From the NCBI RefSeq assembly GCF_014844135.1, contig NZ_CP041403.1:1054001-1118000 (forward strand): a DNA stretch of 64,000 nucleotides, read 5' to 3'. Below the pieces are notes generated by a model. That model had not been told where the DNA came from, searched no databases, and saw only the letters and a list, made by a program, of their open reading frames with translations. This stretch comes from Arcobacter sp. FWKO B (GTDB lineage: Bacteria; Campylobacterota; Campylobacteria; Campylobacterales; Arcobacteraceae). Shown in pieces: positions 24,689 through 54,785 of the stretch (position 1 is its first letter; the number at the start of each line of letters is the position of its first letter). A program made the translations under genes and the position numbers.

Positions 24689-24723
24689 GTGTAGTATAAT
24701 TGATTAATTAGATTATACTACAC
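24689..24723. terminator. Bidirectional terminator between the pse operon and the glycosylation island
   Basis: A perfect twelve-base stem, GTGTAGTATAAT with ATTATACTACAC, surrounds an eleven-base loop, with A/T-rich flanks on both sides. Two long convergent operons end here. Confidence 0.8.
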
Positions 24724-24727: not shown

Positions 24728-25810
24728 TTAACATAATATTTCGGTTACAATTTCTTCTACATTTACAGCCATTTCTTCCAAAATCTTTGTATCTATAGAA
24801 GTTCCTATCATATTTTGTGCTTTCTCGATAAGATCTACTTCATTATCCACCCAAACCATTAAGTTATTGTCTATTTGATATTTATCATAATGACAAATAA
24901 AACTTCTTGTTGAAATGGTAGGTGTTCCTAAGAAACATGCCTCAGTATTTAAAGTTCCACCGCCACCTATAAAGAGGTCTGCAAATTTTAGTAAATGTTG
25001 AACTTTGACTTTTTCCTCTAAAACTATTGCAAAAGGAAATTCTTCTTTAAGATATTCACTCTCATATCTTGGAATTAAAACAATATTAACATCTAAAAGT
25101 TTGTGCAATACTGGTAGAGCTTCATATAAAAAAGGATATTTTCGTGATACATAACTTGATTTGTACTCTTCTTCTCTTATAACAATAGTTTTCTTACTAT
25201 AATCAATATTATAATTTTTCAAAACTTCTTGGACATATTCAAAATCATACTCGAAATTTTGCAGCCAAATAAGTGGATCTATAAAATCATAATCAAATAT
25301 TTGTTCATCATCAAGTCCAAATCGTTTTATAATTTCATTTGGAACAACAAATGGCTTAAACATTTTTGTAGCAATTGGTATAGTAAGTCTAGCTTGTGGT
25401 AAAGCCCTTTTAAAATTTTCTTTATGATCAGATAATGGGATATCATAAAAGTTAATAATAGGAATTCCCAAACCAAATGCAGCCCTACATCCATCAACAG
25501 ATGATAAACAAACTAATTTTTCTATATTATGATGAGCTAAATATTCTATAATTTGATACTGTCTATCTAGTGAAGCTCTAAATTTTGAGACTAAAGAATC
25601 TCCACCGAAATTACCAATATTTAAAAATTCTAAATTATATAAATTTAACAATTCAACTGTTTCTTTATACCCGTCACCACCTCTTGTAGTGATAAGAACT
25701 TTTTTATGTTTTTTAATTTCTTTTATCATTGGCTCAAAAAATAAAACTGATTTTGGAGTTACAAGATCAAACCATATTGTGCTACTTACATTATTATCAA
25801 CTTCTATCAT
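24728..25810 (-). CDS. DUF354-type, GT-B-like protein
   Basis: The 360-residue protein has two Rossmann-like halves as in the DUF354 family, which resembles UDP-GlcNAc 2-epimerase/GT-B folds. The N-terminal half opens with TIWFDLVTPKSVLFFEPMI, a DUF354 pattern, and has LITTRGGDGYKETVEL; the C-terminal half has HLLKFADLFIGGGGTLNTEACFLGTPTIST, a nucleotide-sugar-binding style GGGGT loop. It is the last gene of the 27-gene island. The reaction is unknown. Its start overlaps the asnB-like stop by one base. Confidence 0.7.
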   Translation of the reverse strand: MIEVDNNVSSTIWFDLVTPKSVLFFEPMIKEIKKHKKVLITTRGGDGYKETVELLNLYNLEFLNIGNFGGDSLVSKFRASLDRQYQIIEYLAHHNIEKLVCLSSVDGCRAAFGLGIPIINFYDIPLSDHKENFKRALPQARLTIPIATKMFKPFVVPNEIIKRFGLDDEQIFDYDFIDPLIWLQNFEYDFEYVQEVLKNYNIDYSKKTIVIREEEYKSSYVSRKYPFLYEALPVLHKLLDVNIVLIPRYESEYLKEEFPFAIVLEEKVKVQHLLKFADLFIGGGGTLNTEACFLGTPTISTRSFICHYDKYQIDNNLMVWVDNEVDLIEKAQNMIGTSIDTKILEEMAVNVEEIVTEILC

Positions 25811-28577: not shown

Positions 28578-29569
28578 CTATTTTCCTCTTTATCTTGCTG
28601 TAACCCCGTTTGTTTGCCCCAAGGGAACTCTATTTTGTGAGCACATAATGCCGAGCAAGGTTGGCACTTCTTATCTTTAACTTTTTTAATCACTTCAATT
28701 GCTCGATTAGAATCAAGCAATTTATCTAAATTGCCATTAAAATCGCCTAAATTCCCCATTTTCAGAAAATCTAAACACTCATGGCAAGGAAATACATTCC
28801 CATAAGGATCTATTACCAGAGCTCTTTCACCCATATAGCACTCAAAAATTGGTACATTATTTTGGTATATAGACTTTGCCCATAACCAATTTGGTCTTCG
28901 TCTATCATCAAGCCATTTTACCTTATCAAGTAATTGCTCAATTTCATTTAAGCCATCATTTGTATGTAAATATGGTTTGCTTGTATTTTTAAGTAAGTTA
29001 GCACTTCTAGCATATCCAATAAAATATCCTATACCATTTTCTTTTGCAAAATTTACAAACCAAGGGATATCTTTGTAGTTTTCCTTATAAACAATCATTG
29101 TAACTCTTAAATTAATTCCCAAAGTTTTAAGTAACTTTATACTCTCTTGAACTTTCTGATAACCATTCTTTACTAATCTAATTTTTTTGTAATTCTTTTC
29201 AGACCCATCAAGTGATATATCAATTCTAAAGTTCTCTTTTTTTATGTATTTTAAACATTCCAAAGTTACTTCATAATGTTTCTTAGGATACCAACCACTT
29301 ATATTCGTATGGATAAATGCATTTGGTCTATTTTCAGAAATAATGCGTACCACATCAATATATTTAGAACTTAACTGAGATTCTCCTGCTGTAAGGTCAA
29401 AATAATTTGTTTCTTTTAGATATTTTGATTTAAAGATACTCTCAAATAATGTAATATTCAATTCATCATTGGTTATTTTATCTTTATCATATTGCCATAT
29501 ATTACAATTAGTACATTCTCCAGGACAAAAAAGTGAAACCATATAATTTACATCTTCGATTTTATACAT
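28571..29569 (-). CDS. Radical SAM/SPASM protein (family A, copy 1)
   Basis: The 332-residue protein has the radical SAM cluster motif CPGECTNC (C15, C19, C22) at its start, a LTAGESQLSSKY segment resembling the GGE SAM-binding motif, and a C-terminal SPASM-type set of cysteines (CYMGERA, CHEC, CQPCSALC) expected to bind auxiliary Fe-S clusters. It ends EFPWGKQTG, nearly the same as the paralogue at 31780-32766. Radical SAM/SPASM enzymes modify peptides or sugars; the substrate is unknown here. It lies between two methyltransferase genes. Confidence 0.88.
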   Translation of the reverse strand: MYKIEDVNYMVSLFCPGECTNCNIWQYDKDKITNDELNITLFESIFKSKYLKETNYFDLTAGESQLSSKYIDVVRIISENRPNAFIHTNISGWYPKKHYEVTLECLKYIKKENFRIDISLDGSEKNYKKIRLVKNGYQKVQESIKLLKTLGINLRVTMIVYKENYKDIPWFVNFAKENGIGYFIGYARSANLLKNTSKPYLHTNDGLNEIEQLLDKVKWLDDRRRPNWLWAKSIYQNNVPIFECYMGERALVIDPYGNVFPCHECLDFLKMGNLGDFNGNLDKLLDSNRAIEVIKKVKDKKCQPCSALCAHKIEFPWGKQTGLQQDKEENRC

Positions 29570-30659
29570 TGGTTTTAATCCCCTCCCACAAGTATAAAAT
29601 ATCTACACCCTCAGGAAGATTCTTACACATTTGGTTCTGAATCTGCTTATTTGATGTACATAATATAACTAAATCACCTTTTTGAAATGAATCAATTTTT
29701 TTTAGATTAAATAGTTTATCTTTGGTAATATTGTCATCAGTATAGTAAATATCTTTGTCTTCTAATAATGGTTTTAATTTAACATAAGTCCATAAATAGA
29801 AATTGCTAATTCCATAAAAAATAATTCGTTGATATTTGTTAATTATTTCATAACACTTTTCTTGATGCTTATTAAAATCTTGAAATAAATCTATTATTTT
29901 ATCTGTATCTATTTTTGTAACTGCTGATTTATTAGTTTTTATATTTTGTTTTTGAAATAACACATATATAAACTCTGTGTCATCAACCTTGTTTATATCA
30001 TATTCTTGGAAAATGTTTTGTAGTGTTTGTGTTGTAAAATAATTTACATGATCAGGTGTAAAATCTTCTATAAAGTTCTTTAATGAATTAATAAGATTAG
30101 GAACTTCAATAAATACTTTTCCATCATTTTTTAAAACTTTACTCAATGTTTCTACAAAGTCTTTAGGAAATTTTATATGTTCTAATGTATGTCGCAAAAC
30201 TATCAAATCAAATTTTGTATTAAATAAATCAGCTTCAAAAAATGAATTTATAGTTGGAACTTTCAAATCTTTAAATTCTGTTGGTTCACACCCCAATATA
30301 TTTATATTATTAAATCTCTCTTTTAATAAATATAAAAAATCACCTCGATTTGAACCAATTTCAAGTACATTAAATTCTATGGTATTATCTATATGTTCTG
30401 ATATAAACTCCAAAGCTTTTAAATTGTTGTAATTTCTATTTGGAAAATTATACATATCTGATATTTTATATGATTTATATAGCGTAGATATATTTTCATT
30501 ATATTGTTCTGTATATGCTGATGATTGAAAAACAAAATTACATTTAGAACAAATATCTACTTTTAAATCAATACACTTACTATTCAGGGATATTCCATAG
30601 GGCATATTATGATTTTTATATACTACAAAGCTTTTTTGATTACAAATTGGACATTTCAT
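29562..30659 (-). CDS. SAM C-methyltransferase-like protein with zinc knuckle and Rossmann C-terminus
   Basis: The protein starts with a zinc knuckle (CPICNQ and CSKCNFVFQ). A SAM domain follows (VLEIGSNRGDFLYLL, VLRHTLEHIKFPKDFVE). The last third is Rossmann-like (IIFYGISNFYLWTYVKLKPLL), as in sugar C-methyltransferases of the TylCIII/NovU type. I chose the ATG at 30659, which overlaps the upstream TGA (ATGA), over a GTG at 30674. Substrate not known; a nucleotide sugar is most likely. Confidence 0.8.
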   Translation of the reverse strand: MKCPICNQKSFVVYKNHNMPYGISLNSKCIDLKVDICSKCNFVFQSSAYTEQYNENISTLYKSYKISDMYNFPNRNYNNLKALEFISEHIDNTIEFNVLEIGSNRGDFLYLLKERFNNINILGCEPTEFKDLKVPTINSFFEADLFNTKFDLIVLRHTLEHIKFPKDFVETLSKVLKNDGKVFIEVPNLINSLKNFIEDFTPDHVNYFTTQTLQNIFQEYDINKVDDTEFIYVLFQKQNIKTNKSAVTKIDTDKIIDLFQDFNKHQEKCYEIINKYQRIIFYGISNFYLWTYVKLKPLLEDKDIYYTDDNITKDKLFNLKKIDSFQKGDLVILCTSNKQIQNQMCKNLPEGVDILYLWEGIKTNV

Positions 30660-31783
30660 AATATTTTCAACCACTCTTTCAATATTATATTTGAATCAAA
30701 TCTCTTATTTATAATTTCATTGCCTAAAGCTATTGATTCTTCTTGTAACGATTCATTGTTGCATACACTATAAACTTTTTCTGCCAATTCAATATAATTT
30801 GCATTTGTCAAATTATTACATAATTCACTTGAGCCTGTTTTGAATTTATAACTTACTATAGGAACTCCTAAAATTAACGACTCCACAAAAACAGCTGGTA
30901 GCCCCTCATATAAAGAACTTGAAATATACAATTTAGCATTATTAAGATATTTATACGGGTTTTTTTGTTTACCCCGAAACAATATATCTTCATTAAGTTG
31001 AAACTCAGAAACTAAAGCCTTACATTCATTTATAAGATAACCATCTCCTATAAAAATCAGTTTTTCTTTAATATTATATGTATCTTTTAAATATTTATAT
31101 GCCAGTATAATATCTTTTTGATTCTTTTGTTTATTAAAATGTCCTATATTAATAAAATATGGAATATCTAATTCTAAATTCTCATTTCCTTTTTTTCTTA
31201 TATTCTCAATATCAAAAACATTATAAATACTTACAGTATTTTCAATTTTATAATTTTGTTTTAATAATATTGCCAATTCATCACAAACACAATGTACATT
31301 TTTTACATATTTATTCATTAGTTTTGGCAACACTCTTTTATATATAAAATCTGGTAATAAATGTATCATTGTATTATTATATAAATAATCCCAATTATTT
31401 CTTACAGAACAAATTATTTTTACATTTAAACCTATAGAACTTATTATACAAATAAGTGCAAAATAATCATCTACAGCTAATATTGTATCAAATTTTTTTG
31501 TTTTAAGAAACTTTCTAGTTTTAAAAATCCTTACTAAAAAAATAATAAAACCATAAAGATATGATAACAAAAAATATTTGTGTTTATTTTTTAGAATAAA
31601 CTCTGGAACAGATATAGCTTCTATAATACTTACTTTACCAGTGTGTGGTAAGTCTATTTTATTTTTAAAAAGTAACAATTCAGTATTAAACTTCTTTGAT
31701 AGTTCTATTTCCAACTGGCTTATACGATTATCAACCCCTCCTGCAAGAGAATACAAGGAATGAAATACGATTAATAAATTCAT
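30656..31783 (-). CDS. Glycosyltransferase family 4 protein
   Basis: This is a GT-B retaining glycosyltransferase: an N-terminal acceptor domain opening MNLLIVFHSLYSLAGGVDNRI, an INIGHFNKQKNQKDII hinge region, and a C-terminal nucleotide-sugar domain ending in LYISSSLYEGLPAVFVESLILGVPIVSYK, with the E-x7-E type motif. I chose the ATG at 31783, which overlaps the stop of the preceding radical SAM gene, over an in-frame codon at 31810. Donor and acceptor unknown. Confidence 0.88.
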   Translation of the reverse strand: MNLLIVFHSLYSLAGGVDNRISQLEIELSKKFNTELLLFKNKIDLPHTGKVSIIEAISVPEFILKNKHKYFLLSYLYGFIIFLVRIFKTRKFLKTKKFDTILAVDDYFALICIISSIGLNVKIICSVRNNWDYLYNNTMIHLLPDFIYKRVLPKLMNKYVKNVHCVCDELAILLKQNYKIENTVSIYNVFDIENIRKKGNENLELDIPYFINIGHFNKQKNQKDIILAYKYLKDTYNIKEKLIFIGDGYLINECKALVSEFQLNEDILFRGKQKNPYKYLNNAKLYISSSLYEGLPAVFVESLILGVPIVSYKFKTGSSELCNNLTNANYIELAEKVYSVCNNESLQEESIALGNEIINKRFDSNIILKEWLKIL

Positions 31784-32766
31784 CCTATCATTCCAGTATG
31801 TTTCCCCCAAGGGAACTCAATTTTGTGTGCACATAATAACTTACAAGGTTGGCAATTCTTTTTTTCTATATTTTCTAAAACTTTTAACGCTTTTTTGTCA
31901 AATAATAATTTGTCTAAATCTCCATTATATTCTTTTATATTTCCCATAGACAACATATTGTTTAATCTTCGTTCCTGAGCGCCACCACATGGGAAAACCT
32001 CCCCATAAGCATCAATCATAATTGATCTTTTCCCCATAAAACAATTAAATACAGGGGTATTATTTAAATAAACAGATTTAGCCCATAACCAATTTGAGAA
32101 ATGTTTTGTATCCATAAAACCTATTCTTTCTAGGGCTTTCTCTATTTCATCTATTTCATTTATTTCAAACTGATTAATCTTTCCTATATTGTTAAAATTT
32201 TCACTTTCCACAGCAAAGCCTATATACCAACCAACACCTTTTTTTTCACACATTTGTACAAATTGTTCAATAGATTTATAGTTTTGCTTATAAACAATCA
32301 TAACAAATGTTGGTTTTAGTCCAAGCTTTAACAGCTCATCTGTCGTTTCCATGGCTTTTTCCCAGCCATTTTTTGTCAGTCTTACTTTTTCATAATCTTG
32401 TTTTAGACCATCTATTGATATATCTATTCTAAACTTACCCTTTTGAAACAACTCAAGACCTTTATGTGCTATCTCTAATGTTCTCTTTAAATGCCATCCG
32501 CTCGTATTTGAATGGATTGAAGCACTAGGTTTGTACTTTGAAATCAACTCCAATATAGGGATAAATTTAGGACTTAATTGGGATTCTCCACCAGTTAACG
32601 AAAAATAAAAAGTATCTTTTAAAACAGAACTTTGTATAATCTTTTCAAATATCTCAATATCTACCTCATCCTTAATTCTTGGGTCAGTTTGATAAATATT
32701 ACAATTAACACATTTACCTGGGCAAAATCTTGTGATTGGGTATATTAAGTCATCTATTTTGTACAT
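31780..32766 (-). CDS. Radical SAM/SPASM protein (family A, copy 2)
   Basis: A 328-residue paralogue of the protein at 28571-29569: the cluster motif CPGKCVNC is at the same residues (C15, C19, C22). LTGGESQLSPKF, RIDISIDGLKQDYEKVRLTKNG, NWLWAKSVYLNN and the ending EFPWGKHTG align closely. SPASM-type cysteines lie near CFMGKRS, CGG and CQPCKLLC. Its stop overlaps the glycosyltransferase start. The two copies are separated by a glycosyltransferase and a methyltransferase, so the duplication is not a simple tandem. Confidence 0.88.
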   Translation of the reverse strand: MYKIDDLIYPITRFCPGKCVNCNIYQTDPRIKDEVDIEIFEKIIQSSVLKDTFYFSLTGGESQLSPKFIPILELISKYKPSASIHSNTSGWHLKRTLEIAHKGLELFQKGKFRIDISIDGLKQDYEKVRLTKNGWEKAMETTDELLKLGLKPTFVMIVYKQNYKSIEQFVQMCEKKGVGWYIGFAVESENFNNIGKINQFEINEIDEIEKALERIGFMDTKHFSNWLWAKSVYLNNTPVFNCFMGKRSIMIDAYGEVFPCGGAQERRLNNMLSMGNIKEYNGDLDKLLFDKKALKVLENIEKKNCQPCKLLCAHKIEFPWGKHTGMIG

Positions 32767-32775
32767 TTACTACCC

Positions 32776-33780
32776 TCAATTTGGACATTCTTCACACAAT
32801 GGTATGTTTACTTGTCTTATATGTTTTTCTCTAAATCTGCACATTTCTTTGGAATTATAAATATCATTAAAATTACTTTGTTTCAAATTACCAAAAACCA
32901 ATGGTTTTGTTACTTTTTGACAACATTGTATTATATCACAATTTTTTGTCACATATATATTTGAAAATCCCCAGCTACAAAAGCCTTGCATTTTTCTTGG
33001 ATACCATATTGTAAGACTAAAACTATCATCTTTACAATAACTGTTTACTATATGTTCCCAGTCAATTAGATTGTTTTTATCAACAAATTCTTTAAAATGT
33101 TGATATTTTACAGAATCGATAGCATAATTGTTTGAAGTTGCTTGTATATGAAGTTTATCAATTTTTAGTATATTTGCCAAATCGTATAATTTTCTTATAT
33201 TTTGGTAGTTTTTGTAATTTGCTGTGAAATTAATATTTACATGAAAATAATGTTTTTCTTTTTCTTTTACCGCTTTTTTAATGTTATCAAACAATTTATC
33301 TATTGAAACACCTTTTCTTATTTCTAAAAGAAGTTTATCATCTGGACTATCAACAGAGAAATTAACTTCGTCTATGTAAGGTATGATAGATGAGTCAAAT
33401 AACGAACCATTATTATAAACTTCTACATAAAAACCTTTTTCTTTTGCATATTTAGCCATTTGTATATAGTCTTTGTTTAAAAATGGCTCACCCAAGCCAC
33501 TTAAACATATATTAGTAACACTTGAAGGCAACTTATCAACGATAATTTTAAAATCATCAAAAGACATATCATATTTTACTTTTTCTTTCTCAAGTTCATC
33601 AATAGGGCACATAATACAATTGTAGTTACATCTATTTGTAGGCTCTATTTGTACTCTTGTAACTCCATTTTTACTATGATATTCCAAAAATTCTTTTCTC
33701 TTTTGTTCAAATTTATGCAGATCTTTTAAATCATGATACCATAAGTTAAAATTTTTTATGACTTCATCATAGTTATTCAT
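32776..33780 (-). CDS. Radical SAM/SPASM protein (family B, copy 1)
   Basis: The 334-residue protein has an N-terminal preamble of about 45 residues, then CNYNCIMC (C51, C55, C58), a LSGLGEPFLN motif for SAM binding, and a SPASM region (WYPRK...GFCSWGF, CCQK, CEECPN). With the proteins at 34555-35580 and 39415-40446 it forms a trio sharing the preamble and the WYPR/K...G(F/I)C segment. It overlaps the methyltransferase gene before it by eight bases. Substrate unknown. Confidence 0.87.
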   Translation of the reverse strand: MNNYDEVIKNFNLWYHDLKDLHKFEQKRKEFLEYHSKNGVTRVQIEPTNRCNYNCIMCPIDELEKEKVKYDMSFDDFKIIVDKLPSSVTNICLSGLGEPFLNKDYIQMAKYAKEKGFYVEVYNNGSLFDSSIIPYIDEVNFSVDSPDDKLLLEIRKGVSIDKLFDNIKKAVKEKEKHYFHVNINFTANYKNYQNIRKLYDLANILKIDKLHIQATSNNYAIDSVKYQHFKEFVDKNNLIDWEHIVNSYCKDDSFSLTIWYPRKMQGFCSWGFSNIYVTKNCDIIQCCQKVTKPLVFGNLKQSNFNDIYNSKEMCRFREKHIRQVNIPLCEECPN

Positions 33781-34543: not shown

Positions 34544-34554
34544 TATTCTTCTTT

Positions 34555-35580
34555 TTATATAGGATAGCCATCAGAACATAAACTACAAATAGGATGTTTA
34601 CTAAAATTATAGTGTGCATTCCTAACATTACTCATTATCGGATGTTCAAAAGCTTCTTCAATAGACATATCATTTATGTTTCCGATTACTGTATTATTTG
34701 ATCTACAACAAAGATTTATATTTCCATTTTTATCTATCATAATTTCATTGAATGTAAATCTACAAAATCCTATCATATCTCTTTTTGGATACCATAAATA
34801 AAGTGGGAAATTGTAATCTTTTGATTCATATGTCTCTACAAAATAATCCCAATTAACTTCATCTATAGATTTGTGCAAGTCAGTTTCTAATTTCTTAAAT
34901 TTATCACCATTAAGATAATAAAAATTATTATTCACAGATGTAATAAATAACTCATCAACTTGAGCTTCTTCACAAAACTCCATTAAGTTATACCCTTCTC
35001 TCCAATTAATATAGCTACATACCATATTTATACTTATTTTTGTATTTAATTTGTACCTATTTCTTAATGATACAGCTTTTTTAATATTTTCTGCAGTAAT
35101 TGTAGAATTCTGAATACCTCTAATTTGTTTAAATACATTTTCACTAATTGCATCATAAGAGAAAATAACTTTATTAAAATATTTAAGTAAATTTAAATCA
35201 AATAAAATTGAATTTGTAAAAATATCAATTTTATAATTCTTATTATATATGTATTGTATCATTTCTTTGTAGAGTGGATGTATTGTAGCCTCACCATAAC
35301 TTGTTAAATTTATTGTTTCAACAGATTTAGGTAAATTATCAATTATATTTTGGAATATATCCCAACTCATATCAGATGATTTTTCATCTTGATTATACTC
35401 AGAATTAGCACACATAACACAATTATAATTACATTTTTTGGTTATTTCTAATTGGATAACTTTTAAGTTTTTATCGTTCATAAATCTGTTTCTAGTTTCT
35501 TCTCTTAACTCACTAAAATTTTTATTAAAATTTGTATACCATTTTAGATGATTCTTTCTCAATTCTATTTTATTATTCAC
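34555..35580 (-). CDS. Radical SAM/SPASM protein (family B, copy 2)
   Basis: A 341-residue member of the trio, with cluster motif CNYNCVMC (C50, C54, C57), a LTSYGEATIHP motif, WYPKRDMIGFCRFTF and a SPASM cysteine set (CCRSNN, CSLCSDG). It overlaps the GT2 gene before it by eight bases. Compared with copy 1 the preamble keeps the K/W/Y-rich pattern but the body has diverged, so the enzymes may act on different positions or substrates. Confidence 0.87.
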   Translation of the reverse strand: MNNKIELRKNHLKWYTNFNKNFSELREETRNRFMNDKNLKVIQLEITKKCNYNCVMCANSEYNQDEKSSDMSWDIFQNIIDNLPKSVETINLTSYGEATIHPLYKEMIQYIYNKNYKIDIFTNSILFDLNLLKYFNKVIFSYDAISENVFKQIRGIQNSTITAENIKKAVSLRNRYKLNTKISINMVCSYINWREGYNLMEFCEEAQVDELFITSVNNNFYYLNGDKFKKLETDLHKSIDEVNWDYFVETYESKDYNFPLYLWYPKRDMIGFCRFTFNEIMIDKNGNINLCCRSNNTVIGNINDMSIEEAFEHPIMSNVRNAHYNFSKHPICSLCSDGYPI

Positions 35581-36745
35581 TGAACTCCCCGTTTATATCA
35601 AAAATAAATTGATCATTTTGCAGTAAGTCAATAATCTCGACATCACAAAAATTCCTAATTTTTTTATACATTAAATGCAAAAGCCTATATTTAAAAGTTG
35701 CAATTATTACTAAATCGTTTGAAGATACTTTATTTATAAAATTTTCAAAAGATATATACCCATGAATTTCTCTCATATCATCTACTATTTCATATTTAAT
35801 TAATTCTTTATCAAAAAATTTTCTTAACTCAGCACCTGCGTCTCCGCCACCATATATAAAGATATTATTAAACTTTTCAAACTTAATATTTTGAAATATT
35901 TTGTTAAAAAGCTCATTAGATTTAGAAATATGATAATTAGATTTAATTGCCTCTAATAAATAGTTAACTTCTTTATTATTCCAACTATTTATAAATTGGT
36001 CTTCAACGCCTATGCTTAAAGCCAGTTTATTTACTTCATAAGGAGAGGATATGTAATTAAACACTTCCAAAAGCATATTACCCCTATGTTGCTTACTAAT
36101 TTGATTTATATTTGTATTTTTCCATCTATAGACATATTTATCAACAAAATAAATCTTTTTTGAAAGAATGGCACATTTTAATATCGCTGTCCAATCTGGT
36201 GCATATACATATGGCAAAGTAGTAGTGAAAGCATTACATTCTACAAATATATTTTTTTGAAAGATAAAAGTACTAAAACCAATGTAGTCTCTAAAATCAA
36301 ACCATTCTTTTAAAAAACTAATATTGTCGTATATAGGTTTAAAGTTATAATTGTTTCTAGCAACAACTGTACCACTTTCTATTTCTTGTCTTGCAAAAAA
36401 CATACTTGCACCAATATCGTTTTTTAATAAGTGTATAACATCATCGATATACTGAGGTTCAATTAATCTATCATCATCTGATAGATTAATAAAATATTCT
36501 CCTCTTGATTGACAAATTGCATTTTGCAGATTTGTAGAATATCCCCTAATACCTTTATTTTGTATAAATTTAACCCATGGAAATTCTTGTCTAACCATCT
36601 CAGCAGTACCATCAATTGAATTATCATCAGCTATAATAACTTCTGTATCACTATTTGATTTAAAATATTCTGCATAAAAATATAAATTGTCTCTAAGTAT
36701 TTCTTTTCTATTATAAGTAGTAATTATTATACTTATGTAAATCAT
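35573..36745 (-). CDS. GT2 glycosyltransferase fused to a Rossmann-like domain
   Basis: Residues 1-250 form a GT-A family 2 domain: IYISIIITTYNRKEILRDNL, IIADDNSIDGTAEMV and NLSDDDRLIEPQYID (the DxD-type site). Residues about 285-390 have a Rossmann-like start (IFIYGGGDAGAELRKFF) and an IIATFKYR stretch, resembling the C-terminal domain of the methyltransferase at 29562-30659. The extra domain could bind a nucleotide or sugar. It overlaps its neighbours by 4 to 8 bases. Confidence 0.82.
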   Translation of the reverse strand: MIYISIIITTYNRKEILRDNLYFYAEYFKSNSDTEVIIADDNSIDGTAEMVRQEFPWVKFIQNKGIRGYSTNLQNAICQSRGEYFINLSDDDRLIEPQYIDDVIHLLKNDIGASMFFARQEIESGTVVARNNYNFKPIYDNISFLKEWFDFRDYIGFSTFIFQKNIFVECNAFTTTLPYVYAPDWTAILKCAILSKKIYFVDKYVYRWKNTNINQISKQHRGNMLLEVFNYISSPYEVNKLALSIGVEDQFINSWNNKEVNYLLEAIKSNYHISKSNELFNKIFQNIKFEKFNNIFIYGGGDAGAELRKFFDKELIKYEIVDDMREIHGYISFENFINKVSSNDLVIIATFKYRLLHLMYKKIRNFCDVEIIDLLQNDQFIFDINGEFSE

Positions 36746-37617
36746 AATCTTTCCTGATTGATAACTGTACTAACTATAATATCATGAATAGCTTTTTCAG
36801 TTGAAATAAAATGTATCTTATGAAATTTTTCATGAAACTTTTCACTATCAACAACTACATTATAGTCTCTATTTGTTTTTGACTCTAAAAATGTTAAGTC
36901 AACATGAAAATCAATATTATCACATATTAAATTAACATATTCAATAATTTGCATAGATTTGTTACATGAAATGTTATATATACCATCTATTTGATTATCA
37001 ATAGCATATTTTATAATTAATAATAAATTATTAATATAAATAAATTCTCTATAAGAGTGACCGCCATTAACAATATTAATATTTTTGCTATTAAAAGCCC
37101 CATTAATTATATTATTTAATGTACTTTTGCATTTATAATCTCCAAAGACACCTTGTAATCTAAATATAGTTAGTTTAGTATTGCTTAATAAATTTAACAA
37201 TATATCTTCACTTACCAATTTGGACAAAGAGTAGTAGTCATGTGGTTTAGGTGACAGATCATCAACAATAACCTTATTTTGATTTCCATATATATCCAAA
37301 GTGCTTAAAAAAATGAGTTGTCTAAACTCTTGATTCTTAAGAAAAACACTCAAATTATAAATCATTTTTATATTCTTGCAAAATGTATCAAAATTATTAC
37401 CCACTAATCTAGTAATCGATGATGTAACTACTAAAATTGTATTTTCATCAATTTCTTTTAAAGCATTATTGATACTATTTATACATAAAAGATTGCATTC
37501 TTTACTACTCAATCCTTTTATATCATAACCATCTTGTAAACTTAAATAATATTCCAACTCTTTACCTACAAAACCAGTGGAACCAATGATATAAATCTTC
37601 TTATTATAATTTTGCAT
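36742..37617 (-). CDS. NAD-dependent epimerase/dehydratase (extended SDR)
   Basis: The 291-residue protein has a nucleotide loop IIGSTGFVGKELEYYL near the N-terminus, a serine-rich VTSSITRLVG stretch, the catalytic YYSLSKL (YxxxK) and a NGGHSYREFIYINNLL substrate segment. It should act on a nucleotide-linked sugar as epimerase, dehydratase or reductase; which one cannot be told. It overlaps the radical SAM gene before it by 14 bases. Confidence 0.82.
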   Translation of the reverse strand: MQNYNKKIYIIGSTGFVGKELEYYLSLQDGYDIKGLSSKECNLLCINSINNALKEIDENTILVVTSSITRLVGNNFDTFCKNIKMIYNLSVFLKNQEFRQLIFLSTLDIYGNQNKVIVDDLSPKPHDYYSLSKLVSEDILLNLLSNTKLTIFRLQGVFGDYKCKSTLNNIINGAFNSKNINIVNGGHSYREFIYINNLLLIIKYAIDNQIDGIYNISCNKSMQIIEYVNLICDNIDFHVDLTFLESKTNRDYNVVVDSEKFHEKFHKIHFISTEKAIHDIIVSTVINQERL

Positions 37618-38662
37618 TTTTTATCCAACCACAATTTTTGCAAGCGGGAAATGTTCCATTACATTTTAAAGTATCCTTAAAATATGAAGCTTCTTCACTT
37701 TGAATAATATTTAAAAGGCTATCATTTTTTATATTTCCCCATGTATAACTCAAGCATGGATAAACATTGCCATCAAAATTAATATGAATACTTGACCAAG
37801 GAAAAATACACTCTTTTATACTATTCTTGTTATACTCATTTTGAATAATATCTAAATAATCAATACTATCATCAGAATTTAGATTCATTATAGCTGGATG
37901 TAAAAAAACCTTTCTATTTACTTGTTTTTTTAAATCATTTTTAACTCTTAATAAACTAGTTTTAATAATATCCCAATATTGGTACTTGAATTGATTGTTT
38001 ACATCAAATGCATCTTTATCCATTGGTTGTAAAGAGTGTTGGAAATCTGACCCTTTAAGAAATTGAAATGCGAAAGTATCACATTTAAGTTCATCAAAAG
38101 CAAAATTGTATACTTCAAATAAGTCACTACTATTAGTATCTAATATTGTACATTTAATATCCAATAATGTTTTACTATTAAGTGATTGTTTTATTCTATG
38201 AAAAGTTTTAATATTTTTTAGTAGTTCATTCCATTGTTTTAAAGAACTTCCTCTTACATGGTTAGTTATAGAATCTATTGAAATTGATAATACTTTAAAA
38301 TGTTCTTGAGAAAGAAGAGTGGTTAATATTGACTCATTTAACATTAATCCATTTGAAATTAAATTACAATTATGATTTTTAGTTACATATAAAAACAATT
38401 CATTAAAATATTTATATAATAATGGTTCTCCTCCCGTGAAAGTGATCTGTGCATAAGAGGGCAACTGGTCAACTAATCTTACCCATGTATCTAAATCCAA
38501 AGTCATTTTGTCTGAAATACTTGACTGAAAACAAAAAGGACATTGCAAATTACACTTATTTGTCAAAACAAATACATATCTTGCTGGTAAATTTGATGTA
38601 AGATATAAAGAATTACTCAAATTGATAAAATGTTGCCTAAATGATGTATCCAATATCATCAA
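37604..38662 (-). CDS. Radical SAM/SPASM protein (family C)
   Basis: The 352-residue protein has CNLQCPFC (C37, C41, C44), ITFTGGEPLLYKYF as the SAM-binding motif, and SPASM cysteines in ECIFPWSSIHINFDGNVYPC and ACKNCGW. It looks closer to peptide-modifying or activating radical SAM enzymes than to families A and B. It overlaps the SDR gene by four bases. Confidence 0.87.
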   Translation of the reverse strand: MMILDTSFRQHFINLSNSLYLTSNLPARYVFVLTNKCNLQCPFCFQSSISDKMTLDLDTWVRLVDQLPSYAQITFTGGEPLLYKYFNELFLYVTKNHNCNLISNGLMLNESILTTLLSQEHFKVLSISIDSITNHVRGSSLKQWNELLKNIKTFHRIKQSLNSKTLLDIKCTILDTNSSDLFEVYNFAFDELKCDTFAFQFLKGSDFQHSLQPMDKDAFDVNNQFKYQYWDIIKTSLLRVKNDLKKQVNRKVFLHPAIMNLNSDDSIDYLDIIQNEYNKNSIKECIFPWSSIHINFDGNVYPCLSYTWGNIKNDSLLNIIQSEEASYFKDTLKCNGTFPACKNCGWIKNAKL

Positions 38663-39408
38663 AAAACCCCACCATCTATAGTTACAAATGAACCTGTAGA
38701 ATAGCTACATAAATCAGATACATTGAACAATACTTGATGTGCTACTTCTTCAAAAGTTGCAACTCTTTTTATTGCAGTTTTATTGTTTAAGTATTCTTGA
38801 AATCCTTCAGGGTCATTATTACACCACTCCAAAAAACCACTATCTTGAGAAAGCATCACTCCTGGTAGTACGGTAGTTACAACAATACCACTTTGAGCTA
38901 ATTCCAGACCTAAAGCTCTCGAGTAACTGTTCAACGCAGATTTTGCTGTTACATACAATGGAGTTGCCCAACCTCTAATTGAAGCAATTGAAGATATATG
39001 AACAATCCTACCCCAGCCATTACTCTTCATATTAGGAACAAATGCATTATTCAACTCTATTGCTATTTCAAGATTAAACTTCATCACATCTTTCCATATT
39101 TTAATATCACTTAATGCACTTTTTGTTTTTAATGTACCACCAATACAATGGATAATTATATCTATAGAACCTATGTCTTCTAGTATTATATTACACAAAC
39201 TGATGATATTAGTATTCATTAAGTCATAGCAATAATAAATATGTCCATCACCTTCAAGCTGAGATATGGCGTTTTTTAAACCATGTTCATTTTTTGCAAT
39301 TAATATACATTTAACTCCCTCTTGGGATAAAAGTTTTGCACATTCTAATCCCAGTCCCCTACTACCACCAGTTATTAAAGCTATTTTATTTTTAATATTT
39401 AGATTCAT
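38659..39408 (-). CDS. Short-chain dehydrogenase/reductase
   Basis: A classical SDR of 249 residues: ALITGGSRGLGLECA cofactor motif, NxxG region in CIGGTLKT, catalytic serine in HISSIASIRG, and YVTAKSALNS as the YxxxK pair. C-terminal FVTIDGGVF is typical. The likely substrate is a sugar or fatty acyl intermediate, but nothing fixes this. It lies between two radical SAM genes. Confidence 0.88.
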   Translation of the reverse strand: MNLNIKNKIALITGGSRGLGLECAKLLSQEGVKCILIAKNEHGLKNAISQLEGDGHIYYCYDLMNTNIISLCNIILEDIGSIDIIIHCIGGTLKTKSALSDIKIWKDVMKFNLEIAIELNNAFVPNMKSNGWGRIVHISSIASIRGWATPLYVTAKSALNSYSRALGLELAQSGIVVTTVLPGVMLSQDSGFLEWCNNDPEGFQEYLNNKTAIKRVATFEEVAHQVLFNVSDLCSYSTGSFVTIDGGVF

Positions 39409-39414
39409 TACGCT

Positions 39415-40446: not shown

Positions 40447-40489
40447 TCTTTTACCCAATCCTTAATTATATTGATATTTTATAAAATCA

Positions 40490-42379: not shown

Positions 42380-42382
42380 TTT

Positions 42383-44574: not shown

Positions 44575-44576
44575 AT

Positions 44577-45602: not shown

Positions 45603-45695
45603 TTGTATCCTTGTTTGTTCATATCCAAGTTAATACTAAAGTTATATAATTGTTCTAACTTAAAATATAACTTTTTTTATATCACTAACTAAATT
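45603..45695. promoter_or_regulatory. Largest gap in the island; possible internal promoter or hairpin
   Basis: This 93-base stretch is the only gap in the island longer than about 45 bases. AGTTATAT (45640-45647) and ATATAACT (45665-45672) could pair, and on the minus strand TATA-rich sequence could act as a -10 element for the ADH-to-DUF354 half. AAGGAT lies before the ADH ATG. I see nothing decisive. Confidence 0.3.
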
Positions 45696-46355: not shown

Positions 46356-46365
46356 TTTAAATCCT

Positions 46366-48633: not shown

Positions 48634-48635
48634 AC

Positions 48636-49730
48636 CTATATAAAATTAACATGTGGACTAGGATTTTTTAAGTTCCAAAGATACCTATTAACCTCATCCA
48701 TCCTACAATTCTTTCTACACATAGTTATATCTAAATCATTACTAATAAAGTTTAGATTTTTTCTTCTTTTATCACCTTCCCATATATTTTGAAATGAATT
48801 GTCATTAATATTACCAAGTTTAAAATCTTCATTTCCCAAAAAAGCACTACAACTATAAACCGAACCATCAGCCATAATATAAGCCCAAAAATTTGGAGTT
48901 GCATAGCACTTATCATATGGCTGTTTAGTTTCTTCAAGTTTCTTCATTGTGTTACTTCTAAATATAATATTAAATTCTGAAGTTTCATACTGTTTAAGCT
49001 CTACTTCCAAATCCATCATATTTTGATATGTTAAACCTTCATATATTCTTGAAGTACCATATAAACTTTGTGTATATGGTTTAATGACTAAATAATCTAT
49101 CCCACTATCAGCTAAAATCCTTGCTAAATTTACAACTGTATCTTTGTTTTCAGGTAGTAATAAAAGCTGTGCTCCTATTGTACAAGTGTAATTTTTCTCT
49201 TTTCGTATCTTAACAGCAAGCTTTAAATTTGAAATAACTTTATCAAAATCTTCTTCTTTAGTATTATGTATTTTTGCATATGTCTCTTTTGTCCCAGCAT
49301 TTATACTAACTTTTATCCATTTACAATTTCTTGTATAATTCTCGAGTGTTGTTTCATTCATAGCAACTGCATTAGTCGTAAGAGATGTATCTATTCCAAC
49401 TTCACTACAAACATCCAATATATTTGGTAATGGCTTATATAATGTTGGTTCACCTTCACCTGCAAACATTATACTTTTTACCCCAAGCTTAGCCATTTCT
49501 TTAATTCTTGTAGTAAGTACTTCCTCATTTTGCTTAATACTTTTATATCCGATATAATCTACAGAACAAAAAGTACATCTATGATTACAAGAACCTATAG
49601 GTGTTATTTCAACATATATGGGATATAGTTCTTTTAAACCTTCCCATTTACCTTTTGATTCATACCATTTTGCAACCCTTGACGGATGATAAATTAATTT
49701 ATGACTGTCTATTGCATACTTATCTAACAT
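48636..49730 (-). CDS. Radical SAM/SPASM protein (family D)
   Basis: The 364-residue protein has CNHRCTFC (C48, C52, C55), MFAGEGEPTLYKPL for SAM binding, a KVSINAGTKETYAKIH segment, and SPASM cysteines around KCYATPNFW, CSAF and MCRKNCR. It ends DEVNRYLWNLKNP. It is not closely related to families A to C and is the first radical SAM gene in transcription order. It overlaps the glycosyltransferase gene before it by 11 bases. Confidence 0.88.
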   Translation of the reverse strand: MLDKYAIDSHKLIYHPSRVAKWYESKGKWEGLKELYPIYVEITPIGSCNHRCTFCSVDYIGYKSIKQNEEVLTTRIKEMAKLGVKSIMFAGEGEPTLYKPLPNILDVCSEVGIDTSLTTNAVAMNETTLENYTRNCKWIKVSINAGTKETYAKIHNTKEEDFDKVISNLKLAVKIRKEKNYTCTIGAQLLLLPENKDTVVNLARILADSGIDYLVIKPYTQSLYGTSRIYEGLTYQNMMDLEVELKQYETSEFNIIFRSNTMKKLEETKQPYDKCYATPNFWAYIMADGSVYSCSAFLGNEDFKLGNINDNSFQNIWEGDKRRKNLNFISNDLDITMCRKNCRMDEVNRYLWNLKNPSPHVNFI

Positions 49731-51177
49731 CTTTATTTTCCATTACTTGAACAATATTTAGTATTTTTATCACCATTTTATCATATGATATATCTTTAGA
49801 TATTTGTGTACAATCCTTCAAAGGTTTTTCCCCTATTAAAGTTTTTAATTCATCAAATGTACTAAAAGACAATACATTATCTTCATAATTAAACTCTTCT
49901 TTTAAAAGATTACCTTTATATAATAGTGGTATCGTATCACAAGCTGACATTTCAAAAACTCTTTGCTGATATCTATATTGAGGATGTACAGAAATTGCAT
50001 ATTTTGCACTATTATAAACTTTGGCCATTTCTTCACCATAAGCTAAAAGCCCCTTATAATGTGGAGCAACTTCAGGAATATTTAACCAAGTATCAGTTCC
50101 ATATACTTCTATTTCTATATTTTCAAGTTTACACATCCAAACTATAACTCTTCGTCTTACAAACGATGTTATAATAGATGTCCTAAAAGTATCTTCCTCA
50201 ATCTTAAGGTTTTTCGCATATTCAGAAATCTTATCTTCACTTAAACTATTATTATCAATATCTTTATAAATATTTTGTTTCACATCATCAGGGATATTAT
50301 AATCTTTTTCAAAGTTGTAATCACTTCCTAAAAATACTATTTTATTTTCTTTTTTTATAGTTTCATCTCTATAAAATATCTTTGGATTTGTTGCAAACTG
50401 CTGACTCATTATTTTTGATTTATCTACACCCTTATTTATTAAAGCCGTTTTAAACTCATCAAATAGTGTAAAGATATAATCTCTATCCCTTAATCTAATC
50501 TCTTCTTCATCATAAAGTATTGACATAGGATCTTGAAACCACACAAAATTAAATACCTTATCATTTAAAAATGTATTATTTATATGATCAAGATTAAATA
50601 TTATATGCGGGTTATACTCATATATATTTTTAAGATGCCATAAAAAGTCTGCATTATTATGGCTATCATTAGCTCCCCAAGATTGCATCTCATTTTCTTC
50701 AATAGATACAAATGTATCATATCCCATATCATTAAATGCATCTGCTAAATTTTTTGCAACATATTGTAAAACAGTAGTACATCTTGTGGTAATAAATAAA
50801 ACTCTCAAGGGCTCACTAAAATCTAGTGTTTGCTCAGAAATAAGCTTTTTATAAGTGTTGGCAATTTCATATTTTTTATTCCAAGCAATAGTTTGTAACT
50901 GACTAATATATGATACTAACTCTCTTTGTTGTTCATTAGTAAAAGTCATATCTTCACTAAAAACAACATCACTAATCATTCTATTTGGAGTAAGTGTCAT
51001 ATAATCACATATTCTATCTACAGGTACACTAATTAAGTTTTTATATGGTGTCTTTTCATCAAGTTGTCCATTATAATAACATATCTGTAATTGGTTAAAT
51101 AGACTAAATTGATTTTGCTTTCTAGCCTCTTTATATGCATCTTTATAATTAAAAAAATATTTATCCATATAATTCAC
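49720..51177 (-). CDS. CgeB/DUF3880-like glycosyltransferase
   Basis: The 485-residue protein has a helical N-terminus, a Rossmann-like middle (LRVLFITTRCTTVLQYVAKNL) and a C-terminal GT1-type segment YAISVHPQYRYQQRVFEMSACDTIPLLY, as in CgeB/YkvP-like glycosyltransferases. A MIDVV-like donor site is not obvious. It should add a sugar, possibly to a protein or carbohydrate acceptor. It overlaps the GmhA-like gene by four bases. Confidence 0.75.
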   Translation of the reverse strand: MNYMDKYFFNYKDAYKEARKQNQFSLFNQLQICYYNGQLDEKTPYKNLISVPVDRICDYMTLTPNRMISDVVFSEDMTFTNEQQRELVSYISQLQTIAWNKKYEIANTYKKLISEQTLDFSEPLRVLFITTRCTTVLQYVAKNLADAFNDMGYDTFVSIEENEMQSWGANDSHNNADFLWHLKNIYEYNPHIIFNLDHINNTFLNDKVFNFVWFQDPMSILYDEEEIRLRDRDYIFTLFDEFKTALINKGVDKSKIMSQQFATNPKIFYRDETIKKENKIVFLGSDYNFEKDYNIPDDVKQNIYKDIDNNSLSEDKISEYAKNLKIEEDTFRTSIITSFVRRRVIVWMCKLENIEIEVYGTDTWLNIPEVAPHYKGLLAYGEEMAKVYNSAKYAISVHPQYRYQQRVFEMSACDTIPLLYKGNLLKEEFNYEDNVLSFSTFDELKTLIGEKPLKDCTQISKDISYDKMVIKILNIVQVMENKDVR

Positions 51178-51755
51178 TCACTTTTATTGTAACTTTTTAT
51201 ATAATACGAGTATATTATATGATCCAATATCATATGCATATCTTCAACAAGTCCATATTCATTTGATTTTGTTTGCACATGAAAATTAACATCTGATATT
51301 TTTTTTAGATATCCTCCATCAAATCCAGTTACACCAATAATCTTGCTACCTATTTCTTTAGCATAATCTACTGCTTTTATAATATTTGCTGAATTACCAC
51401 TACACGATATTGCAATAATAACATCATCTTTTTTTAATAGCCCTTTTAATTGCATATAAAAAATATTATCATATCCTATATCATTAGCGATTGCAGTACA
51501 TACTGGAGTGTTATCCGCCAAACTTACAATATCTAAATTTATTATATCTCTTCTTCTTAGTCCAGCACCTAAATCATTCACCATATGAGAGGCGGTTGAA
51601 GCACTACCACCATTACCTATTACATATATCTTAGATTGATTTATTTTTGTAGTTTCCAAAAGCTTAATAATATCTGATATAACATTATAGTCAATACCAT
51701 CAAGTAAGTTCTTTAAGTTATCAATGTACTCAAAAACAAAATCTTTTAAACTCAT
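51174..51755 (-). CDS. SIS-domain isomerase (GmhA-like)
   Basis: The 193-residue protein is a SIS-fold sugar isomerase: IYVIGNGGSASTASHMVNDL and DVIIAISCSGNSANIIKAVDYAKEIG are the phosphosugar-binding serine-rich motifs of GmhA (sedoheptulose-7-phosphate isomerase). The YGLVEDMHMILDHIIYSYY ending also fits. With the HldE-like protein and the transketolase halves it suggests a heptose-like precursor route. It lies 28 bases after the Maf gene. Confidence 0.85.
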   Translation of the reverse strand: MSLKDFVFEYIDNLKNLLDGIDYNVISDIIKLLETTKINQSKIYVIGNGGSASTASHMVNDLGAGLRRRDIINLDIVSLADNTPVCTAIANDIGYDNIFYMQLKGLLKKDDVIIAISCSGNSANIIKAVDYAKEIGSKIIGVTGFDGGYLKKISDVNFHVQTKSNEYGLVEDMHMILDHIIYSYYIKSYNKSE

Positions 51756-51782
51756 ACTTTACCTTATTATAATCTTCATTTT

Positions 51783-53744
51783 TTAATCTATTATCTTTTT
51801 TATTTCTTTAAAAACTTCAACAACACCTAAAGACCACATAAGATTAATTTTAACGAGACTTTCTTTTGTATATAAATCTTTTTGCTTCAAGTTTAACAAA
51901 AAGTTTATATATGTATCAGACAATTCTATGTATTGTAAAAATATATTACCAAACATTGCACTTGTCATCCCTTTGCTTTGTTCAAGTATCCATAACATAA
52001 TGTCAAGTTTTTTTTGTAATAAATCATCCCTTGAGTCAATCTTCAAATCTTTATATTTATTGACTTTGTTAATTATCCTATTTATTATCTTAATATCATT
52101 TGAATAATCAGGAACTTCTAAAATCTCTGAAATACCATCAATTTCTTTTTGTACATTAAACTCTTTCTGTGGAAAGTACTCTATTTTTTCATGCATTTGC
52201 TCATATTTTAGTGGATTAAATCCCTCAATATATACACCATCCGAAAGATTAAATACCTTAAACTTATAAAATGATTCTAGGTCATACTTCGTAGTTTCAA
52301 ATGATTCTTTGAAAGGTAATAAACTTCTATTTGTTTTGACATTTTCTCTTAGATTTCCTTTTACCTCAAGAATATCATATATAGAAACTAGCTCATTCCC
52401 AGCCTTTTTGACATCAATATCTTCCACTTGTGTATAAGAACTATCAGCAGCATATCTACTTCCAGTATCTTGATTAAATGCTGCATCAGTACCTATTGTA
52501 TATAACTCATCTGCACCCAAATGAACAGCTACTTTAAATGAAAACGCACCAACATTTGTAACACTCCCCAACCAACCTATTCTACTAACAAGTGGCATAC
52601 TTTGAGAAAATACATAATGTTTCCCTTTGACTACTTTTAAAACATCAGGATGTTGTTGGGATAAAAATATTATAGAGCTATTATCTAAATATTTAGGATC
52701 ATCTGTTGTTAGATATTTAGCACACAATTCTGATGGATCTATAGATACAACAATATCAGGTCTAATACGATGCTTTTCCAATTTTCTCAAAATTACATCC
52801 ACACATATTATCACAAATTTATCTTGATGTTCTTCTATCCAATCTATATAATTATCCAATGATGGACCAGCACTTATTAAAAGTACTTTTTTACCTTTTA
52901 ATATCTTTTTTTCATGTATTAAGTCAACATTTACAAATCTACTTTTGTCTTTAATAAATTCTATTGTTCTATGTAAGTTATCTATAACTTTTTTATAAGG
53001 GAAAAACATGGCTGAGTTATTGCCAAAGAAATCAACTACTTCATTATATATATAGTTATAACCTTCTAATAAAAGATGGTGTTTAATATTATAGTTCATA
53101 TAATTATGGTATTGATAAAAAGCTCCTAATATTGACATTCTTTTGAGTTGAGAGTCCCCTACAGATAAAAATAGTTTTTTATTTCCTTTATCAAACTCAC
53201 TATAATCAATCATAAATAAAGACAACCTAAAAATCTCTAAATTTGGCTCTATTATCATTGTTACAAGTGGGTTTAATTTTTTATTTATCTCATGAATATG
53301 AAGTCCAAGTCCAGTACCTATAAAAATATATTTATAAATTTTCTGAAATTCAATATTTTCAAAGTCAACAGTTTTATTCATATACTCAATAATTGGCATT
53401 ACATCTTTATACTCTTGGCTTACAACAAGCTTGATTCCAGTTTGATCTTTTCTTAATAAATCAAGTGAACCATCTTTTGTAAAATTTGCATGTTCTTTTC
53501 TATAATCAGCATCTTCATAGCTATTTGTATGATAAAATAATCCATTATTTTCTAAACTTAATATATCAAAACAGCCATCTATATACTCTAAAGAATACTT
53601 TATTTCATATTCGCCAGTTTGAATCTTTTTTGAAAGTTCATCAACACTATTATAAGTATCCAAGTAATTCTCTTCTAAAAACTTCATATTTTTAAGATAG
53701 ATTTCAACTATAATATCACTTAGATTATCTAACTCTTCATTCAT
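51783..53744 (-). CDS. Maf-type motility accessory factor (flagellin glycosyltransferase candidate)
   Basis: The 653-residue protein matches the Maf/DUF115 (MptE-like) family: KKVLLISAGPSLDNYIDWIEEHQDKFVIICVDVILRKL with a central Rossmann-like DUF115 domain and DIVVSIDPSE. Maf proteins transfer pseudaminic or legionaminic acid to flagellin in Campylobacterota and other phyla. It is the first gene of the island; the flagellins lie 150 bases upstream. AT-rich DNA between the flagellin terminator and its ATG includes a TATAAT-like stretch near 53772-53779. Confidence 0.85.
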   Translation of the reverse strand: MNEELDNLSDIIVEIYLKNMKFLEENYLDTYNSVDELSKKIQTGEYEIKYSLEYIDGCFDILSLENNGLFYHTNSYEDADYRKEHANFTKDGSLDLLRKDQTGIKLVVSQEYKDVMPIIEYMNKTVDFENIEFQKIYKYIFIGTGLGLHIHEINKKLNPLVTMIIEPNLEIFRLSLFMIDYSEFDKGNKKLFLSVGDSQLKRMSILGAFYQYHNYMNYNIKHHLLLEGYNYIYNEVVDFFGNNSAMFFPYKKVIDNLHRTIEFIKDKSRFVNVDLIHEKKILKGKKVLLISAGPSLDNYIDWIEEHQDKFVIICVDVILRKLEKHRIRPDIVVSIDPSELCAKYLTTDDPKYLDNSSIIFLSQQHPDVLKVVKGKHYVFSQSMPLVSRIGWLGSVTNVGAFSFKVAVHLGADELYTIGTDAAFNQDTGSRYAADSSYTQVEDIDVKKAGNELVSIYDILEVKGNLRENVKTNRSLLPFKESFETTKYDLESFYKFKVFNLSDGVYIEGFNPLKYEQMHEKIEYFPQKEFNVQKEIDGISEILEVPDYSNDIKIINRIINKVNKYKDLKIDSRDDLLQKKLDIMLWILEQSKGMTSAMFGNIFLQYIELSDTYINFLLNLKQKDLYTKESLVKINLMWSLGVVEVFKEIKKIID

Positions 53745-53790: not shown

Positions 53791-53823
53791 AAAAAAACCC
53801 AAGCCTTTTAAAGACTTGGGTTT
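53791..53823 (-). terminator. Flagellin terminator copy 1
   Basis: The stem AAACCCAAG with CTTGGGTTT (minus strand) is followed by a T-run. Identical copies follow the other two flagellins. It separates flagellin transcription from the maf gene. Confidence 0.93.
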
Positions 53824-54749: not shown

Positions 54750-54785
54750 CTTCGATCCTTTGTCTTTATTTTCTTCACTAAGAGA

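Follow-up and report, generated by a model that had tools for sequence, protein, structure and literature searches.

Seven Twitch-type radical SAM enzymes in a flagellin-linked island of Arcobacter sp. FWKO B and their probable role in tailoring glycan sugars

Introduction

Why does one run of genes directly downstream of flagellin encode seven radical S-adenosylmethionine (SAM) enzymes? The question is raised by an island of 27 minus-strand open reading frames (ORFs) at 24728-53744 of the window, by which we mean the whole stretch of 64,000 nucleotides analysed, positions 1054001-1118000 of the complete 2.24 Mb genome of Arcobacter sp. FWKO B. A preliminary description of this DNA saw in it a flagellar glycosylation island richer in radical SAM enzymes than any known to have been described, and proposed that these enzymes build a chemically unusual glycan or modify the carrier protein. 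We propose, with a probability of roughly two in three, that this is a Maf-type flagellin glycosylation island whose radical SAM enzymes, of the Twitch type, tailor nucleotide-activated sugars. The linkage of such genes to flagellin and Maf is conserved in other families of the phylum, and the radical SAM genes keep company with sugar-nucleotide genes there and elsewhere.

Composition of the island

The whole gene set lies on one strand and is compact, as the preliminary description had it: 16 of the 26 junctions overlap, 22 either overlap or are at most 10 bp long, and the other four measure 11, 27, 31 and 93 bp. Sigma-70 promoter scans performed no better than on shuffled sequence, and the operon structure therefore remains putative. 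The island is AT-richer than its surroundings within the window (27.3% against 30.8% GC). Its first gene is indeed a Maf-type flagellin factor, and the four methyltransferases (a-d) reported earlier were confirmed with Pfam. In order of reading, the genes are:

51783..53744 (-) Maf-type flagellin glycosyltransferase, first island gene; PF20157 and PF01973 over cut-off
51174..51755 (-) SIS-domain sugar isomerase, GmhA-like (heptose module); PF13580
49720..51177 (-) GT-B-type glycosyltransferase, 485 aa; PF13524; a 34% relative adjoins rSAM7 in G408
48636..49730 (-) rSAM7 (type D), radical SAM/Twitch, heptose module; PF04055, PF13186
47833..48633 (-) split transketolase, thiamine diphosphate-binding half; PF00456
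47355..47840 (-) split transketolase, pyrimidine-binding half; PF02779
46366..47358 (-) nucleoside diphosphate (NDP)-sugar 4,6-dehydratase-like enzyme of the short-chain dehydrogenase/reductase (SDR) family; PF16363
45696..46355 (-) methyltransferase d (heptose module); PF08241
44577..45602 (-) zinc-type alcohol dehydrogenase; PF00107, PF08240
43108..44574 (-) HldE-like kinase/nucleotidyltransferase; PF00294, PF01467
42383..43111 (-) sugar-1-phosphate nucleotidyltransferase, HddC-like; PF00483
40490..42379 (-) probable large GT-B-like glycosyltransferase, 629 aa
39415..40458 (-) rSAM6 (type B), radical SAM/Twitch; PF04055, PF13186; conserved C, CC, CxxC
38659..39408 (-) short-chain dehydrogenase; PF00106
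37604..38662 (-) rSAM5 (type C), radical SAM/Twitch; PF04055, PF13186; 45% relative in the heptose module of G050
36742..37617 (-) NAD-dependent epimerase/dehydratase; PF01370; a relative adjoins the rSAM5 relative in G050
35573..36745 (-) family 2 glycosyltransferase; PF00535
34555..35580 (-) rSAM4 (type B), radical SAM/Twitch; PF04055, PF13186
33773..34543 (-) methyltransferase c; PF08241; syntenic in G048 and G229
32776..33780 (-) rSAM3 (type B), radical SAM/Twitch; PF04055, PF13186; syntenic relatives 55-61%
31780..32766 (-) rSAM2 (type A), radical SAM/Twitch; PF04055, PF13186; syntenic relatives 82% and 75%
30656..31810 (-) group 1 glycosyltransferase; PF00534; start codon uncertain, 31-bp overlap
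29562..30674 (-) methyltransferase b; PF13489
28571..29569 (-) rSAM1 (type A), radical SAM/Twitch; PF04055, PF13186
27564..28577 (-) methyltransferase a; PF08241
25810..27564 (-) AsnB-like glutamine amidotransferase; PF00733, PF13537; TIGR01536 over cut-off
24728..25810 (-) DUF354 protein with a predicted UDP-GlcNAc 2-epimerase fold, last gene; PF04007

The genome holds nine SPASM-type genes, and chance would place seven of them inside 29 kb with P ~2e-12; for the 28 radical SAM matches of the genome, seven of which fall in the island, the corresponding value is P ~6e-8. Gene 40490 and its relatives, which recur in related loci, have only sub-threshold Pfam matches to Glyco_trans_1_4, and a search of gene 40490 against the PDB gave no match.

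Linkage to flagellin and Maf in other genomes

The left half of the island (methyltransferase c, rSAM3, rSAM2, the group 1 glycosyltransferase, methyltransferase b, rSAM1, and the AsnB-like and DUF354 genes) keeps its order beside flagellin and Maf genes in G048, a member of another genus that has the same outer flanking genes and six radical SAM genes in its island, and in G229, from another family. Among the Campylobacterota genomes that carry both a type A radical SAM gene (rSAM1, rSAM2 and their relatives) and flagellin or Maf on one sufficiently long contig, the other assemblies being too fragmented, all seven place the type A gene within about 35 kb of flagellin or Maf; in a Thermodesulfovibrionales genome the distance is 12 kb. 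We also measured distances from SPASM genes to Maf in 24 low-contig Campylobacterota genomes with at least three SPASM genes each, which become 23 when the present genome is left out. Within these 23, 43 of 106 SPASM genes lie no more than 30 kb from a Maf-domain gene, about nine times the 4.6 expected, and 16 genomes have at least one such gene against an expected 4.0; the P values are nominal, because the genomes are related and were picked for SPASM number, and the excess is large. These results support a linkage that is conserved rather than accidental, and with it the earlier reading of the locus as a flagellin-linked glycosylation island.

With its nine SPASM genes, this genome ranks among the top 1% of the 397 sampled from the phylum; G144 (12), G280 and G420 have higher counts. 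Eight SPASM-type matches of G144 lie within 25 kb of its own flagellin and Maf genes, and the complete genome G408, of another family, combines Maf, the heptose module, relatives of rSAM7 (75%) and of the DUF354 protein (72%), AsnB and further radical SAM genes in a locus that ends at FliD and FliS. The neighbourhood search that the preliminary description had suggested thus recovered both syntenic (G048, G229) and parallel (G144, G408) islands linked to flagellin or Maf in other genera and families. A unique island is therefore rejected, and that of the window is one of a recurring class.

Seven Twitch enzymes of four types

Domain searches, likewise suggested at the outset, placed all seven proteins (28571, 31780, 32776, 34555, 37604, 39415, 48636) over the Pfam cut-offs for both Radical_SAM and SPASM, each with a CxxxCxxC motif, and the predicted structure of rSAM1 (predicted local distance difference test, pLDDT, 91.5) has a radical SAM fold. 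They fall into four sequence types, A (rSAM1 and rSAM2, 47% identical), B (rSAM3, rSAM4 and rSAM6), C (rSAM5) and D (rSAM7), and since identity between types is mostly about 20%, they are not the product of one recently amplified gene. Four C-terminal cysteines are conserved among the relatives of every type, with one spare in types A and B, the counts for types B and C being based on a small number of relatives; in rSAM7 the four are invariant and there is no invariant spare. In a profile search the four align with those of BtrN, whose four-cysteine pattern is described as that of a Twitch domain, as contrasted with the seven-cysteine SPASM motif that binds two auxiliary clusters (PMC6231123). 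With only four to five conserved C-terminal cysteines per type, SPASM identity in that strict sense is rejected: by their cysteine pattern the enzymes are of the Twitch type, with a truncated SPASM domain and one auxiliary cluster predicted, and "SPASM", as used in the preliminary description, is valid as a Pfam label only.

Do these enzymes act on sugars or on peptides? The closest folds to rSAM1 are BlsE (Z 22.4), SkfB (22.1), SuiB (20.2) and DesII (19.7). Two points count in favour of a sugar: BlsE and DesII act on sugar-nucleotide substrates, and the conserved cysteines align with those of BtrN, an aminocyclitol oxidiser. The tie of BlsE and SkfB at the top means that the fold of rSAM1 does not in itself settle the matter. 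None of the seven proteins had an NCBIfam equivalog match, and the PHROGs matches were to generic radical SAM families only. Similarity is a poor guide to function in this subfamily (PMC6231123), and the exact reactions, whether dehydrogenation, epimerisation, deoxygenation or decarboxylation, cannot be assigned from sequence.

Modification of flagellin itself or of a small peptide, by cross-links or epimerisation like those of ribosomally synthesised and post-translationally modified peptides (RiPPs), would agree with the fit of SkfB, with several weak NCBIfam matches that are peptide maturases, and with the presence of Maf, which brings the flagellin protein into the locus. A precursor gene would, however, find little space: no internal gap exceeds 93 bp, the one of that size holds no forward ORF of at least 20 aa, and no precursor was found at the island, to which the search was confined; Pfam scans of the 27 proteins revealed no peptide-binding RiPP recognition element (RRE) or PqqD domain. 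As the neighbours are sugar-nucleotide enzymes, and a duplicate of rSAM7 lies in a polysaccharide locus that lacks flagellin (see below), we consider peptide modification very unlikely. Even less probable, in our estimate, is a secondary-metabolite cluster, for instance for an aminoglycoside-like compound, inserted beside flagellin: BtrN, DesII and BlsE, the nearest sugar-type enzymes, do come from antibiotic pathways, but Pfam scans of the 27 proteins found no exporter, resistance or polyketide/peptide genes, and the position beside Maf and flagellin is conserved in several families.

The heptose-like module and its second copy

Nine genes, for the SIS isomerase, the HldE-like, HddC-like and SDR enzymes, the two transketolase halves, the alcohol dehydrogenase, methyltransferase d and rSAM7, make up a heptose-like module. 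The nearest solved structures to the SIS isomerase (51174) are phosphoheptose isomerases (E 3e-23), and the SDR protein (46366) matches dTDP-glucose 4,6-dehydratase structures (E 3e-44). The HldE-like protein (43108) has its domains in reverse order relative to the NCBIfam HldE model; its only strong solved match is a heptose 7-phosphate kinase, and rfaE domain models match it under cut-off. For the HddC-like protein (42383), the solved matches include proteins of the "6-deoxy-D-manno-heptose pathway". The set recurs in other Campylobacterota (G013, G015, G022, G050, G408); on a Solidesulfovibrio plasmid an rSAM7 relative (45% identical) adjoins SIS and PfkB genes, with pse genes close by, and a comparable set is present on an Azospirillum plasmid. 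The company of GmhA-, HldE- and HddC-like genes that rSAM7 keeps in several genomes argues for a sugar substrate.

That rSAM7 acts on a sugar is indicated chiefly by a second copy of the module in the same genome, some 85 kb upstream of the one in the island (L003, G000:C1:1008001-1028000), with identities of 78% for rSAM7, 85% for methyltransferase d and 79% for a transketolase half, since this copy sits in a polysaccharide locus, adjoining genes of the Wzx, Wzz, ManC and GDP-mannose-dehydratase families. The 93-bp gap of the island (45603-45695) is replaced there by two short ORFs without Pfam matches.

The same second copy raises the possibility that the island itself is a surface polysaccharide locus, for lipopolysaccharide or capsule, which adjoins the flagellin genes by chance, and the radical SAM/DUF354 pairs found away from flagellin in Deferribacterota (see below) would fit as well. 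Yet Pfam scans of the 27 proteins found no flippase or polymerase, no Wzx, Wzy or Wzz, no lipid-carrier transferase and no ATP-binding cassette (ABC) exporter or other transporter, and hydrophobic stretches are scattered single ones only; the genome has its separate Wzx/Wzz locus; Maf is the first gene; and the flagellin/Maf linkage is kept across families. Hence we regard a polysaccharide locus as unlikely here.

A type A enzyme with a DUF354 partner

A scan of about 85,000 species genomes gave 22 loci with type A relatives, in Campylobacterota, Deferribacterota, Thermodesulfovibrionales, Myxococcota, Methylomirabilis, Desulfonauticus and others; within the phylum the type is rare (6 of 397 genomes). 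A DUF354 gene lies on the same strand in 21 of the 22, usually as the next gene, and the lone locus without it is a short contig that ends. An AsnB-like amidotransferase is found between or near the pair in nine of the 22, and in several an SDR-family sugar-nucleotide enzyme precedes it. In the model of the DUF354 protein of the island (24728; pLDDT 88), the best fold matches are UDP-GlcNAc 2-epimerases, at Z 31 over 336 residues, with glycosyltransferases at about 22. By this ranking its predicted fold is that of a UDP-GlcNAc 2-epimerase, and the protein is unlikely to be a glycosyltransferase, as the preliminary description had counted it. Because its DUF354 partner has this predicted fold and SDR-family sugar-nucleotide enzymes adjoin the pair, the type A enzyme probably acts in a nucleotide-sugar pathway. 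A large protein with a CPYKCxFC-type motif (about 860 aa in several loci) also recurs near the pair (L034, L036, L038, L040 and similar loci).

A model for glycan assembly on flagellin

The island is flanked by the following features:

53895..56929 (-) three flagellin genes, upstream; flagellin domains, whole-genome PF00669 matches
53795..53823 (-) strong terminator between the last flagellin gene and Maf; 13-bp stem and T run
about 24689..24723 (no strand) hairpin between the convergent island and pse operon; 13-bp stem, -14.8 kcal/mol
18646..24051 (+) pseudaminic acid operon pseB-C-F-G-H-I, convergent, downstream; complete, six of six over NCBIfam equivalog cut-offs

In the model that we favour, Maf would begin the glycan on cytoplasmic flagellin, drawing on the convergent pse operon for pseudaminic acid, and the glycosyltransferases of the island would extend it with unusual sugars made by the island itself. 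The heptose-like module would yield a modified NDP-heptose, and a second set (rSAM1, rSAM2, the AsnB-like amidotransferase, the DUF354 protein and methyltransferases) a second sugar, amidated or methylated. On these sugars, the role foreseen for the seven radical SAM enzymes is cleavage of unactivated C-H bonds by means of the 5'-deoxyadenosyl radical; the single auxiliary Fe-S cluster of each would accept electrons or anchor the substrate, as it does in BtrN or MoaA. Assembly is expected in the cytoplasm because flippase and exporter genes were not found among the 27 proteins and because Maf glycosylation in Aeromonas is cytoplasmic and precedes export (PMC4065374). The analysis itself shows the gene content, the protein families, the Twitch cysteine pattern, the predicted DUF354 fold and the conserved linkage; the substrates, the reactions, the order of the steps and the place of the product on flagellin are what we infer.

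Several observations weigh against this model. All heptose-module enzymes score below the NCBIfam equivalog cut-offs, so the sugar could differ; the module also serves a polysaccharide locus; the peptide-modifying SkfB matches rSAM1 about as closely as BlsE (Z 22.1 against 22.4); in four Deferribacterota genomes the type A/DUF354 pair is unlinked to flagellin genes; and the glycan, the transcript and the enzyme activities are all deduced from genes. The polysaccharide-locus copy and the Deferribacterota loci lead us to reject a flagellin-only role for these enzymes. The same two facts favour a sugar over the flagellin protein as substrate, since the radical SAM module is repeated in an ordinary polysaccharide locus and the radical SAM/DUF354 pair occurs far from flagellin. 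Thus, of the two possibilities first raised for the locus, the unusual glycan is preferred and modification of the carrier protein disfavoured.

Relation to known systems

The GDP-(6-deoxy-)heptose pathways of Campylobacter, Burkholderia and Yersinia capsules use GmhA, a kinase, HddC and a 4,6-dehydratase. The island likewise groups isomerase-, heptose kinase-, nucleotidyltransferase- and dehydratase-like enzymes, but adds the split transketolase, the alcohol dehydrogenase, a methyltransferase and rSAM7, and scores below the equivalog cut-offs. With BtrN, BlsE and DesII its enzymes share a radical SAM core and an auxiliary-cluster domain, the cysteines being as in BtrN and the BlsE and DesII folds close to rSAM1; in contrast, identity in structure alignments is 11-16%, and here several such enzymes, with inferred substrates, occupy one locus.

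Flagellar glycosylation islands are well known and are exchanged as replacement islands (PMC4033161). The Maf/pseudaminic acid systems of Aeromonas, Campylobacter and Clostridium likewise bring together flagellin, Maf and a complete Pse pathway, with cytoplasmic assembly expected (PMC4065374), whereas the present island adds 27 further genes, including seven Twitch radical SAM genes, a heptose-like module and an amidotransferase. Radical SAM enzymes go unmentioned in the Clostridium flagellin glycosylation papers checked. A table for Campylobacter fetus subsp. testudinum includes phase-variable radical SAM genes alongside methyltransferase and dehydrogenase genes with nearby numbers; these are annotation names only, and no role or pathway is proposed for them (PMC6321876). 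What is new relative to known flagellar glycosylation islands is hence the radical SAM enzymes as components, of which we found no description in the open-access papers searched, subscription papers being outside the search. The preliminary claim that no such radical-SAM-rich island was known to have been described holds within that scope, but this is not a one-off, given G144 and G048.

Whether Campylobacterota, and occasionally other phyla, build flagellin-glycan sugars with sets of Twitch radical SAM enzymes, as a widespread and undescribed branch of protein glycosylation whose monosaccharides arise by radical C-H chemistry and which is phase-variable in some species, we regard as evenly balanced. 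If so, the flagellar filament, a product that can be seen and tested, would be tied to a large and mostly uncharacterised class of radical SAM enzymes, and one would expect flagellin glycans whose chemistry is unknown in the pse/leg systems. Compact co-conserved sets (type A with DUF354 and often AsnB-like genes; rSAM7 with the heptose-like module) would be open to in vitro substrate tests, and the finding would bear on how these bacteria vary their surface.

Neighbouring features and minor observations

The hairpin at 24689-24723 had been described as a terminator shared with the pse operon. It is present and folds far better than shuffled sequence (z -3.8), but a clear T tail is absent and it fails the terminator scan. 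On the other side of the island, the last two flagellin genes are identical at 847 of 855 aligned coding bases, and the trio looks like the result of recent duplication or gene conversion; the same strong terminator is repeated after each of the three genes (53895-56929).

Poly-C/G tracts of 8-13 bases occur in many genes of the G144 locus (L053, L054; 14 in 40 kb) and of the G280 locus (L055; 13 in 20 kb), which suggests combinatorial phase variation there; the window's island has none of this kind. In a second rSAM7-type gene of G144 (L054:6878-8028), a poly-C tract marks the point at which the coding sequence breaks into two frames. Away from the flagellin island, G048 and G034 share another pair of radical SAM genes, with the motifs CPLECAYC and CPLECPYC (L014, L022).

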